A stretch of DNA of 64,000 nucleotides from Mesorhabditis belari (taxonomy: Eukaryota > Nematoda > Chromadorea > Rhabditida > Rhabditidae), in assembly GCA_958450365.1 (NCBI GenBank), contig CAUEEP010000601.1, positions 1 to 64,000 of the forward strand, written 5' to 3'. The notes under the pieces were generated by a model. It was not told where the DNA came from, ran no database searches, and saw only the letters and a list, made by a program, of their open reading frames with translations. Shown here piece after piece: positions 16,527-23,693 of the stretch (the first letter of the stretch is position 1; each line of letters starts with the position of its first letter). The position numbers and the translations under genes were made by a program.

Positions 16527-17812
16527 CTAGCAAGGAAAGACACAAATTCCGTATGGACGAATGGCGTCATTTTCCTTGGCAATCCAGTAATCATCAAGAT
16601 TGGCAACACCGTGTTTCGACTTGGGCACAATTTCACGACGAGATGGATCGACACGAGCCTGAAACAAAACTAATAAAGTATTTCTAAGAAATAATTTTGA
16701 GTTGTTATTTATCGTTTGTATGTGTACGACTAAGAAGTATGTAACAAATCCCACCTGAACAATCAACTTGTAGGTTTTTCCATCGTAGTGATAAGTCGAT
16801 GCATAAGCGAGTGCAGTCTTTGGGTCTGGTGTGCAGTAGATACCATGTCCAAACAGGAAACGTTTGCCCTCTTTCTGCAAATAATGAACTTAAGCAAATG
16901 TATACTTCAAACCAAATCAAGTCCACCGCTACGAACAATTTCAGCAGCACGCGGATCCGTTGTTCCATGATAAGCAACTGACCATTCGCCATCAATAGAG
17001 CTGTTCGCACTTTGGCTAAAGCTGTAGTTAACAAAATAAAACAGGAGAAAAATTACCGAAGAGTTCCAAGCCAAACATTGTCCCCATATTTGTCAAGAAC
17101 AGCGAGAGCATAACGCATTGATCCAAGTGGACGAGTGTAGAGAGCTCCACCACGAGAGAATGGTTGCTGGTCGATCAAAATCTTCGTGAAATCGTAATTG
17201 AACTCTGCAGCAAAGCATTCCTTGTTCATTTGATAAGCGGTACATCCTCCTCCTCGAAGTCTCAGCACCAAATGAATAGTAGATTCTTTTTTGACATTGT
17301 ATTCACTCAAAGTCTTTTCATCTTCCAATTGCTGTCCAGCAAAAATGAGACGTTGTTGATCAGGAGGAATTTCTTCCCTGTCTTGAATAAGCATCTTCAG
17401 CTCTTCGGCAGTGTAATCACCATTTAGCTCGAGAGTGATTGTCTTTCCCGTCAATGTCTTTACAAAAATAGCTATATTACTTGGTTTATGCTTTGCGCGA
17501 ATCTCTTGGACCGACATCTTCGACACAGCAGCTAAAATGAAAAATACTTTATCGTTACGACGTGGTCATGCCCGAGAACCAGTACTTTAAAAATTGAGAT
17601 CTTACCTTTTTTAATTGTATTCACATCGAAAAAGAGCTCGCGTGGTTGGACAATCATAAAATCGGCAATGGCTTCTGGATCTGGATCAAAGGGCTCGTTT
17701 TTGAGGCGACACATATGATAGTTGATACCAACACGGAGAGCCTCATCTAAACAAAAAAATTGTCAATATCAAAACATTAAATAAGTTCACCTTCAATCGA
17801 GAGCTTTGGCAT
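16527..17812 (-). CDS. ubiquitin-domain/ART-like fusion protein (330 aa)
   Basis: Six exons (17812-17791, 17746-17606, 17531-17057, 17015-16913, 16874-16755, 16658-16527), 993 nt open throughout. Residues 1-55 are the family N-terminus (PRELFFDVNTIKK). Residues about 74-149 are a ubiquitin fold: IFVKTLTGKTITLE, PPDQQRLIFAG, LHLVL-type strand, ending RLRGG at 145-149. Next comes the family middle domain (CTAYQMNKECFAAEF ... RPLGSMRYALAVL). The ART-like core follows, with AYHGT (His229), FGHGIYCTP (Tyr260) and DDYWIAKEND-IRPYGICVF at the end. Ubiquitin K48 is Gln and K29/K33 are Leu/Arg, while K6, K11, K27, K63, I44 and H68 are kept. The GG could be cut by a deubiquitinase, giving free ubiquitin-like and ART parts (inference). 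Start chosen after a CTTTCAG acceptor. ADP-ribosyl transfer is inferred from motif order only. Confidence 0.82.
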
Positions 17813-17819
17813 ATTGAAA

Positions 17820-18256
17820 ACAGCTACTGATTTCAAGAAGGTATATCACTGAAAGGAGAACAGTTAAAATGTTCTGATGGCTATTAATGCATCAAATCAG
17901 AAAAAGAAAAAGAAAAGAAAAAAATCTTTGTTAAAAAAGAAAATTAAGAAAGCAATTGTACGAATACCTTTTTACAACAGTTTTAGTATGAGAAATGTTC
18001 AGTTTAAAATTGAAATTGAAATTGAAAGCCTTTTGAAGAGAACTAGAAGAATGCCAAACTGTCAATGCCTAAATGAGAGCTGAAAAGCCAATGACTCCTT
18101 TTTTGCTTCTTTCACATTTTTTATCTTGCAAGAAAAAGCGCCTCGATTCCTATTTTTGGAATCAAAATCCTTATCTTTTCTCTTGCTTAAAGATTTTACG
18201 ATCGGAAAAGTTATTCCAAAATAAAATAAAAAGTGGAGAAGGAGTTCCCCAGGTGT
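17820..18256. other. upstream flank of ubiquitin-ART gene, no gene
   Basis: Contains the trans-splice-like acceptor and AT-rich DNA. The 68-codon lysine-rich ORF at 17877 is A-tract coding, not supported. Confidence 0.45.
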
Positions 18257-21952: not shown

Positions 21953-22367
21953 TATATAAGAGCAAAAGCTATAGCTTTGCGCGAACCTCGTAAGCAAATT
22001 TGAGTTAATGTGCCACTAAAACAATGTGTGGAAACAACAAAAAGATGTTTTTGCACTTTGCACAACAATTTTAGATTTTTTGCTAACTTTTTCATGTGAA
22101 GAATAGTTAATAAATGAATAAAAAAAGCCTCACTTTTGCTTGCTTGAATAGCTTTAGAATGTCACATAAACATAAAGTCAAAAAGGTTTAGATGAAAAAG
22201 AAGCAAACAGAAATTCAAATTTTCGGGGGTGCACTACTATTTTTTGAACCCCCTCCTGGACCGCAATACTATTAGAGAGTGCACTACTATTAAAGAGTGC
22301 ACCTCTATTAGAGAGAATACGGTAACAAAGTGAAACTTAACAAATGAAAAATAATCAACGTGCAAGT

Positions 22368-23693
22368 CTAGCAAGGAAAGACACAAATTCCGTATGGACG
22401 AATGGCGTCATTCTCCTTGACAATCCAGTAGTCATCAAGATCGGCAACACCGTGTTTCGACTTGGGCACAATTTCACGACGAGATGGATCGACACGAGCC
22501 TGAAACAAAATTAATAGAGTATTTCCAAGGAATAAGTTTGAGTTGTTCTGTATCGTTTGTATGTGTACGATTAAGAAGTATGTAACAAATCTCACCTGAA
22601 CAATCAACTTGTAGGTTTTTCCATTGTGTTCGTAAGGAGATGCATAAGCAAGTGCAGTCTTTGGGTCTGGTGTGCAGTAGATACCATAACCAAAAACAAA
22701 GCGATTTCCTTTCCCCTAGAAGAATATTTTGTAAAAAGGATCCACGATTCCCCACTATTTATTCAAAAGCCAAAATAACAAACCAAATCAAGTCCACCAC
22801 TACGAACAATTTCAGCAGCACGCGGATCCGTCGTTCCATGATAAGCAACTGGCCATTCGCCATGAATAGAGCCGCACTCAATTGGGCTAAACCTGTAGTT
22901 AACAAAATAAAACAAGAAAAATTACCGCGCAACCTTTCCGAGCCAGACATTGTCCCCATATTTGTCAAGAACAGCGAGAGCATAACGCTTTGATCCAAGT
23001 GGACGAGTGTAAAGAGCTCCACCACGAGAGAATGGTTGCTGATCGATCAAAAGCTTCGTGAAATCGTAATTGAACGTTTCAGCAAAGCATTCCTTGTTCA
23101 TTTGATAAGCGGTACATCCTCCTCCTCCTCCTCCTCGAAGTCTCAGCACCAAATCAATAATAGATCCATTTTGGATATTGTATTCACTCAAAGTCCTTCC
23201 ATCCTCCAATTGCTGTCCAGCAAAAATGAGACGTTGTTGATCGGGAGTAATTCCTTCCTTGTCTTGAATAAGCGTACGCAGCTCTTCGACGGTGTAATCA
23301 CCATTTAGCATGATAGTGATTGTCTTTCCCGTCAATGTCGCTACAAAGATAGTCATATTATTTGGTTGATGCTTTGCGCGAATGTCTTGAACCAACTTCT
23401 TCGACACAGCAGCTAAAATGAAAAATACTTTATCGTTACGACGTGGTCATGCCCGAGAACCAGTACTTTAAAAATTGAGATCTTACCTTTTTTAACTGTA
23501 TTCACATCGAAAAAGAGCTCGCGTGGTTGGACAATCATACCATCGGCAATGGCTTCTGGATCTGGATCAAAGGGCTCGTTTTTGAGGCGACACATATGAT
23601 AGTTGATACCAACACGGAGAGCTTCATCTAAACAAAAAAATTGTCAATATCAAAACATTAAATAAGTTCACCTTCAATCGAGAGCTTTGGCAT
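22368..23693 (-). CDS. ubiquitin-domain/ART-like fusion protein (334 aa)
   Basis: Exons 23693-23672, 23627-23487, 23412-22926, 22886-22784, 22715-22596, 22499-22368, total 1005 nt, all in frame. Paralog of 16527-17812 with the same order: N-terminal block, ubiquitin domain, CTAYQM middle domain, AYHGT, GYGIYCTPDPKTALAYA, DDYWIVKEND and IRPYGICVF. The ubiquitin part has diverged further (K6 Ala, K27 Arg, K29 Leu, K48 Gln, K63 Asn, H68 Asp) but keeps K11, K33, I44 and the RLRGG end. That end is followed by extra Gly codons (GGGGG) from a CCT-repeat expansion at about 23118-23136. The upstream acceptor and the first exon MPKLSIE are shared with the paralog. Confidence 0.82.

Follow-up and report, generated by a model that had tools for sequence, protein, structure and literature searches.

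The genes described here lie in the first 64,000 nucleotides (the window) of a contig of the nematode Mesorhabditis belari, called C446, which belongs to a 207.6-Mb assembly of 714 contigs; a second contig of this assembly, C561, also enters the analysis. Two genes of the window, A and B, place a complete ubiquitin between an N-terminal block and a domain predicted to adopt the fold of PARP-type ADP-ribosyltransferases. Comparison with database proteins indicates that this order of parts is no local insertion but the common layout in a eukaryotic family of wide distribution, and that ubiquitin was lost once in a branch of the worm's genes. Our tentative reading, to which we would give slightly less than an even chance, is that the three-part protein, whose ubiquitin ends in Gly-Gly, would be cut after ubiquitin by deubiquitinases and release a mono-ADP-ribosyltransferase, with ubiquitin as a removable chaperone or gate.

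The gene models and domains on which this is based are the following (HMM, hidden Markov model).

17812-16527, minus strand: gene A, splice model from the sequence, six exons (17812-17791, 17746-17606, 17531-17057, 17021-16913, 16874-16755, 16658-16527), 332 amino acids
17015-16913, minus strand: exon 4 of gene A with the public intron-3 acceptor (6 nucleotides later), which would give 330 amino acids
17606..17812, minus strand: N-terminal block of gene A, exons 1-2
17248..17475, minus strand: ubiquitin domain of gene A, residues 74-149, ending in RLRGG and then GC; HMM positions 1-72 at 17469-17254
16527..17244, minus strand: predicted ADP-ribosyltransferase domain of gene A, residues 151-332, introns included, with AYHGT, GIYC, DDYW and IRPYGIC
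23693-22368, minus strand: gene B, six exons (23693-23672, 23627-23487, 23412-22926, 22892-22784, 22715-22596, 22499-22368), 336 amino acids
23129..23356, minus strand: ubiquitin domain of gene B, ending in RLRGG and then GGGGC; HMM positions 1-72 at 23350-23135

The transferase domain of gene A was delimited by the fold of a sister protein, P0003, and the family alignment. The N-terminal block is conserved across the worm copies and aligns only loosely across the wider family. In both genes, exon 3 contains the entire ubiquitin and continues with GCTAYQM (A) or GGGGCTAYQ (B). An earlier note on this DNA had described A and B as intact genes with a ubiquitin ending in RLRGG between N-terminal block and transferase. 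We can confirm this: the frames are open, and the Pfam profile PF00240 matches over positions 1-72 of 72 with E-values of 1.4e-28 (A) and 1.7e-24 (B), which excludes chance. The PARP-like motifs AYHGT, GIYC and DDYW follow each other in the order it gave, and the protein lengths it named, 330 amino acids for A and 269 for a sister without ubiquitin, match the public intron-3 acceptor and the public P0003 model. Identity to the worm's own polyubiquitin amounts to 55/76 residues in A and 53/76 in B. As 73 residues precede ubiquitin in A, it is not N-terminal as in ubiquitin-ribosomal-protein fusions. Both domains end in Gly75-Gly76 and are followed by further polypeptide, which is characteristic of ubiquitin precursors and not of integral ubiquitin-like domains, which have no Gly-Gly end. 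RGG is kept in all seven worm ubiquitins compared.

A ubiquitin search of the genome yielded eight exons of this kind with a complete ubiquitin; C446 carries five of them and C561 three. Genes A, B, C, D, F and G, six of the eight, are open from start to stop. The public annotation reads the ubiquitin stretch otherwise. The models matched to copies A, B, F and H, half of the eight, all omit it, giving the proteins P0001, P0006, P0002 and P0010, the first of which equals our gene A model minus the skipped ubiquitin; the skipped length is 279-346 nucleotides by codon count. A precomputed ubiquitin domain is found in 0/11 listed M. belari proteins, in a database clustered at 90% that may hide others. 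If the stretch were an intron, spliced out as in these models, no fusion protein would be made in the worm; a ratio of nonsynonymous to synonymous changes (pN/pS) not below 1 in ubiquitin would fit this. However, each of the four models has its own donor, and only B and F agree on the acceptor, so that three acceptors are in use, whereas the five accepted introns have sites common to all eight copies, except for slides of three bases at intron 3; there, copy G lacks the CAG acceptor and keeps the TTTAG acceptor used by the public models. No stop occurs in seven ubiquitin copies, and ubiquitin is present in the protein records of relatives from other species. Because the skip sites disagree among models while accepted introns share sites, and because the frames are open, the ubiquitin stretch is most likely coding and the public annotation wrong. 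On these two grounds, splice-site disagreement and open frames, we reject the intron as very improbable.

The earlier note had suggested structure predictions of the 269- and 330-residue proteins, the first of which is P0003. The predicted structure of P0003 has a PARP catalytic fold across the whole C-terminal domain, and not an unrelated fold, with matches to PARP16 and PARP10-type enzymes at 11-18% identity. With the ubiquitin-bearing P0012 as query, 50/50 rows listed were ubiquitins, and the evidence for the transferase fold thus comes from P0003. A profile search of the PDB aligned the His and Tyr motifs by sequence to PARP16; beyond PARPs, it gave weak rows (E 0.1 and above) of exotoxin-type ADP-ribosyltransferases and unrelated chains. 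Viral proteins, several of them named PARP, were among the fold matches (four at E 0.001 or better) and speak for PARPs in general, not for a viral origin. PF00644 is touched at E 0.1 or better by 73/92 family members, and P0012 from Ditylenchus reaches 30.8 bits, above the cut-off of 26.7. A PARP-type ADP-ribosyltransferase fold is supported as a prediction for the C-terminal domain.

The PARP catalytic motif has the order H-Y-E. Over the aligned rows, His is found in 129/131, Tyr in 131/131, and the third position is Glu in 98/130 and Asp in 11/130. Clustering at 60% identity left 29 representatives, with His in 28, Tyr in 29 and a third residue that is Glu in 15, Asp in 7 and another residue in 7. 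In the predicted fold, the Asp position of the worm lies at the start of the next-to-last strand, ahead of the final strand IRPYGIC, and by strand order only it would correspond to the PARP Glu. Because His and Tyr are kept and the third residue varies as in mono-ADP-ribosylating PARPs, the domain may carry out mono- rather than poly-ADP-ribosylation, by analogy with the Clade 3 PARPs and their variable third residue (Citarelli et al. 2010, PMC2964712; this and the papers below are cited for the parts available to us). We think it rather unlikely that the domain is a pseudoenzyme of PARP fold that binds NAD, ADP-ribose or only partners without catalysis. A third residue that differs from Glu in M. 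belari and is variable across the family would agree with it, as would the presence of PARP13, which is inactive, among the fold matches; the near invariance of His, Tyr and the surrounding motifs and an acidic third residue in 22/29 representatives argue for catalysis.

A family search with an alignment free of any ubiquitin as query covered 3,662 candidates, 427 of which reached E 1e-5 or better. The best 120 of the 427 come from mycorrhizal fungi (Rhizophagus, Funneliformis, Acaulospora, Ambispora, Gigaspora, Glomus), bdelloid rotifers, a coral and nematodes, and many entries are probably environmental sequences. The relatives checked for ubiquitin were 128 database proteins (P0012-P0022, P0097 and P0141-P0256), a set that leaves out the M. 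belari proteins P0001-P0011 and the polyubiquitin rows P0023-P0140 except P0097. Ubiquitin (E below 1e-3) was detected in 115/128, or 117/130 with A and B added, and 97/117 ubiquitin-bearing proteins have Gly-Gly at its end; the set is redundant, and 115/128 and 97/117 are not independent counts. The 13/128 relatives without ubiquitin include coral and Caenorhabditis bovis proteins. Where relatives are named, their database labels read 'ubiquitin-like', 'PARP catalytic domain-containing' and similar. A viral or bacterial origin was also considered; pattern scans of viral contigs and of bacterial/archaeal contigs gave 10 and 8 stretches, none of which is a relative by tblastn.

The window also holds sisters without ubiquitin, for which the earlier note had described a short Arg-rich linker at the same exon position; this linker is indeed present. 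They were found at 29360-28191, about 9.0-10.2 kb, 33.4-34.6 kb and, broken, at 4589-3674, and their linkers contain remnants of a ubiquitin tail.

28191..29360, minus strand: sister without ubiquitin, public protein P0003, 269 amino acids in the public model and 271 in the model made here (exons 29360-29339, 29295-29116, 28969-28717, 28683-28575, 28511-28392, 28322-28191)
28908..28937, minus strand: tail remnant in the P0003 gene, RLMPTRREGR versus HLVLRLRGGG, 23/30 nucleotides identical to the tail of A
9047..10163, plus strand: sister without ubiquitin, exon 2 onward, public protein P0008
9412-9441, plus strand: its tail remnant, 21/30 nucleotides
33439..34548, plus strand: sister without ubiquitin, exon 2 onward
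33821-33850, plus strand: its tail remnant, 20/30 nucleotides
3674..4589, minus strand: broken copy without ubiquitin
4240-4211, minus strand: its tail remnant, 21/30 nucleotides

Directly before a shared Cys codon, the linkers of the sisters are identical to the ubiquitin-tail DNA of A at 20-24/30 nucleotides (null mean 7.4, sd 2.4). Among the 127,940 30-mers of the window (both strands), at least 20 identities occur only at the two ubiquitin tails and the four copies without ubiquitin (28937, 9412, 33821 and 4240); one other 30-mer, at 44383, reaches 19. Because the linker matches the ubiquitin tail while the next 30 nucleotides upstream do not (just 3-12/30), the alignment indicates that ubiquitin was deleted down to about its last nine codons. 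Gly-Gly is missing in 7/8 distinct sisters, which would have lost it subsequently. The genes without ubiquitin form one clade (ultrafast bootstrap, UFBoot, 100), and with the relatives as outgroup the ubiquitin-bearing B and a gene without ubiquitin group together to the exclusion of A (UFBoot 99). The earlier note had left both gain and loss of ubiquitin in exon 3 in play. Ubiquitin-bearing relatives elsewhere, the tail remnant in the linker and the single clade that groups with B lead us to reject a gain in A and B and, as far as trees and alignments go, show one loss. The transferase tree unites M. belari and three Ditylenchus destructor proteins (UFBoot 100); a fourth D. destructor protein and one other sequence stand outside that group (UFBoot 86), and Caenorhabditis bovis stands outside the other nematodes (UFBoot 84). 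C. bovis belongs to a group taxonomically closer to Mesorhabditis, and the expected species order differs from the tree. This could be due to a transfer from one nematode to another or to old duplications followed by losses.

Copies without ubiquitin were sampled in the genome at 14 places taken from transferase matches, which are not all that exist and exclude the window copy 4589-3674. Immediately before the enzyme domain they fall into eight distinct sequences, and the transferase domain is open in 7/8. As synteny links parts of the window to C561 (2137-11716 at 96.6%, 25972-30388 at 98.7% and 32890-36387 at 98.8%), several copies are likely alleles of a heterozygous genome, so that not all of them are separate genes. 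Between two syntenic blocks, the window has A, B and a truncated third ubiquitin gene, and C561 has one complete ubiquitin exon, gene G; ubiquitin-bearing genes show presence/absence variation between haplotypes. Incomplete ubiquitin copies in the window are these.

24711..25177, minus strand: truncated ubiquitin-bearing copy; the N-terminal block is followed by ubiquitin up to about residue 65, then no ubiquitin tail and no transferase domain
38851..38985, minus strand: fragment comprising the beginning of exon 3 and, in it, the first third of ubiquitin

Diverged transferase-domain matches, mostly with stops and at about 44-59% identity, lie on contigs C681 and C294 and would represent a second, older subfamily or pseudogenes.

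Selection differs between the parts of the protein. Among the six open copies (15 pairs), pN/pS is 1.23 for the N-terminal block, a value with few underlying changes, 1.25 for ubiquitin and 0.32 for the transferase part. For the transferase domain it is 0.49 among sisters without ubiquitin (21 pairs) and 0.39 between the two groups (42 pairs). Ubiquitin in seven copies gives 1.28 against a neutral 0.78 (sd 0.19), a value reached by 1.7% of 600 simulations. These contrasts show that the transferase domain is under purifying selection with or without ubiquitin, and they indicate that ubiquitin evolves faster than drift predicts. Elsewhere, few known proteins change as slowly as ubiquitin. Neutral evolution was simulated 20,000 times along the tree of the seven ubiquitins; no copy acquired a stop in only 3.4% of the runs, and in 0.26% the core was in addition as hydrophobic as observed, at positions that we take to form the core. 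Neutral decay of ubiquitin is thus unlikely. However, among stop-free simulations only, the core test is weak (P 0.076 when hydrophobicity is compared, 0.28 when varying core positions are counted), and copies D, F and C share different stretches, a mosaic that suggests recombination between copies and weakens the neutral-decay test; the selection ratios come from a model free of recombination. The variable ubiquitin positions are linked to one face (7/7, P 0.003), whose patch members we assumed; the face was picked after seeing the data, and the link is only suggestive. Neither the I44 patch (3/6 variable, P 0.74) nor the tail (1/6, P 0.14) is significantly conserved. Positions 6, 12, 14 and 63 drift in the worm ubiquitins; Arg42 is unchanged in 7/7 and Thr66 in 6/7.

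Fusions in which ubiquitin ends in Gly-Gly are cut by deubiquitinases. In the reading we prefer, the precursor would be made first, and deubiquitinases would then cut after Gly76. The freed (or intact) transferase would use NAD to add single ADP-ribose units to presumed protein targets. Ubiquitin would be a removable chaperone and gate; ubiquitin-bearing copies would yield a separable enzyme, and sisters without ubiquitin would do the same work with the N-terminal block permanently attached. Besides the public models without ubiquitin and the weak core test, several observations weigh against this scheme. Gly-Gly is absent in 20/117 ubiquitin-bearing proteins, including the nematode P0015 and P0018 and the rotifer P0223 and P0252; cutting can therefore not be universal. 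The worm fusion ubiquitins retain just 48-57/76 residues of the worm's own ubiquitin, and two of the eight copies have broken frames (E in exon 5, H in exon 3). As to the enzyme, M. belari P0003 scores only 13.5 bits with PF00644, below the cut-off of 26.7. The third motif residue is Asp in 13/13 open worm copies and Gln, Ala, Pro, Lys, Thr or Asn in 7/29 representatives, and a profile comparison (hhalign) with the worm's own PARPs left the third motif unaligned.

Integral ubiquitin-like domains dock at ubiquitin receptors or the proteasome. The main rival to cutting is that ubiquitin stays on as such a docking domain and brings the transferase to these partners, which we regard as unlikely, though to be taken seriously. 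The 20/117 proteins that lack Gly-Gly and still keep the domain fit docking better, and the drift at positions 6, 12, 14 and 63 suggests that general ubiquitin function is not required. Processing-resistant fused ubiquitin escapes negative selection according to the available part of PMC11354881, and this would fit the absent purifying selection. The retention of Gly-Gly in 97/117 and of RGG in every worm ubiquitin compared points instead to cutting. Ubiquitin might also be the transferase's own substrate or guide, ADP-ribosylated for example at its tail, Arg42 or Thr66. DTX3L/PARP9, SidE and CteC are known to ADP-ribosylate ubiquitin (PMC11668277), and the constancy of Arg42 and near constancy of Thr66 would agree. 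However, the transferase domain is under purifying selection in sisters that have no ubiquitin, any close kinship to CteC and SidE would be conjectural, and we judge a substrate role quite improbable. Going beyond our preferred scheme, an unnamed eukaryote-wide PARP family may carry its own ubiquitin as a cut-to-activate switch. The worm ubiquitin would then diversify around positions 2, 4, 12, 14 and 64-66, with Gly-Gly fixed, driven by a conflict in which pathogens or selfish elements target ubiquitin signalling, and the sisters without ubiquitin would be switch-free; this is a doubtful extension.

Some further features of the locus and of the public proteins were noted. Between A and B, at 20330-21954, lies a Tc3/mariner-like element with 248-nucleotide inverted repeats (98% complementary), whose transposase reading frame is broken into several open reading frames; as query in a plasmid search, it gave no match. 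Gene A is flanked by 11-bp tandem arrays at 16099-16460 and 18263-18583, made up of GGTTCCAATAT in 33 copies and, on the opposite side, its reverse complement in 29 copies. Partial transferase copies without the N-terminal part adjoin the four copies without ubiquitin (2834-3014, 10369-10741, 27618-27978 and 34767-34981). Three of these four read exons 5 and 6 without the intervening intron, and two have an in-frame stop; they are possibly retrocopy-derived or degenerate duplicates. In public P0009, from about 33.4 kb of the window, the transferase domain is fused to a glycosyltransferase family 4 domain, and in P0097 of Ditylenchus destructor ubiquitin and transferase are fused to a 7-transmembrane receptor. 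Both look like annotation fusions.

PARPs and ubiquitin each run a large system of protein tagging, and the cross-talk between the two has been studied largely via bacterial effectors and DTX3L/PARP9. A conserved single protein with both would offer a direct handle on it, and the worm has natural paralogues with and without ubiquitin for a clean test of ubiquitin's role. It is also a rare case of a fast-changing ubiquitin, which an apparent gene-annotation error hides in the public M. belari proteins. According to the available parts of two PARP surveys (PMC2964712, PMC4245714), PARPs are linked to ubiquitin in many ways (UIM, WWE, U-box, E2-like and UBA domains), and C. elegans has three PARPs; an architecture of N-terminal block, ubiquitin and transferase is not described in them. 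Literature searches on ubiquitin-PARP fusions and close terms likewise gave no paper on the family among the matches listed (in two cases 15 of 69 and 12 of 24); coverage is thin for subscription journals, and an earlier description may exist.

Among known systems, the PARP16/PARP10-type mono-ADP-ribosyltransferases are alike in fold, in the His and Tyr motifs (PARP16) and in a third residue that is not a fixed Glu. The worm family differs from them by its own front part (D-F, RGG..Y.RP.G..R.A, W-L-G), the last motif IRPYGIC and the internal ubiquitin. Fusions with an internal ubiquitin are known from algae (Sibbald et al. 2019, PMC6332867), and these and the ubiquitin-ribosomal fusions (PMC11354881) join ubiquitin to another protein, as here. 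However, the partners described there include NiSOD, actin and ribosomal proteins, unlike the PARP domain of the worm family; the words PARP and ADP-ribos are absent from the main text of PMC6332867. A literature search on BUBL-type proteins, in which a ubiquitin-like part is combined with an intein-like domain, gave no hit. In DTX3L/PARP9, SidE and CteC (PMC11668277), an ADP-ribosyltransferase also meets ubiquitin, but as a separate substrate, whereas here both are in the same polypeptide. The Acanthamoeba PARP4-like proteins (Perina et al. 2014, PMC4245714) likewise have a ubiquitin-related domain within a PARP. They are two proteins of one amoeba and belong to Clade 5 (vault PARP type), and the layout found here is not described for them in the part available. 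PARP6/8 homologues with UBCc, RWD or UBA domains (PMC4245714) again join a PARP to a ubiquitin-pathway domain, but their partner is E2-like or ubiquitin-binding, whereas that of the worm family is ubiquitin itself.

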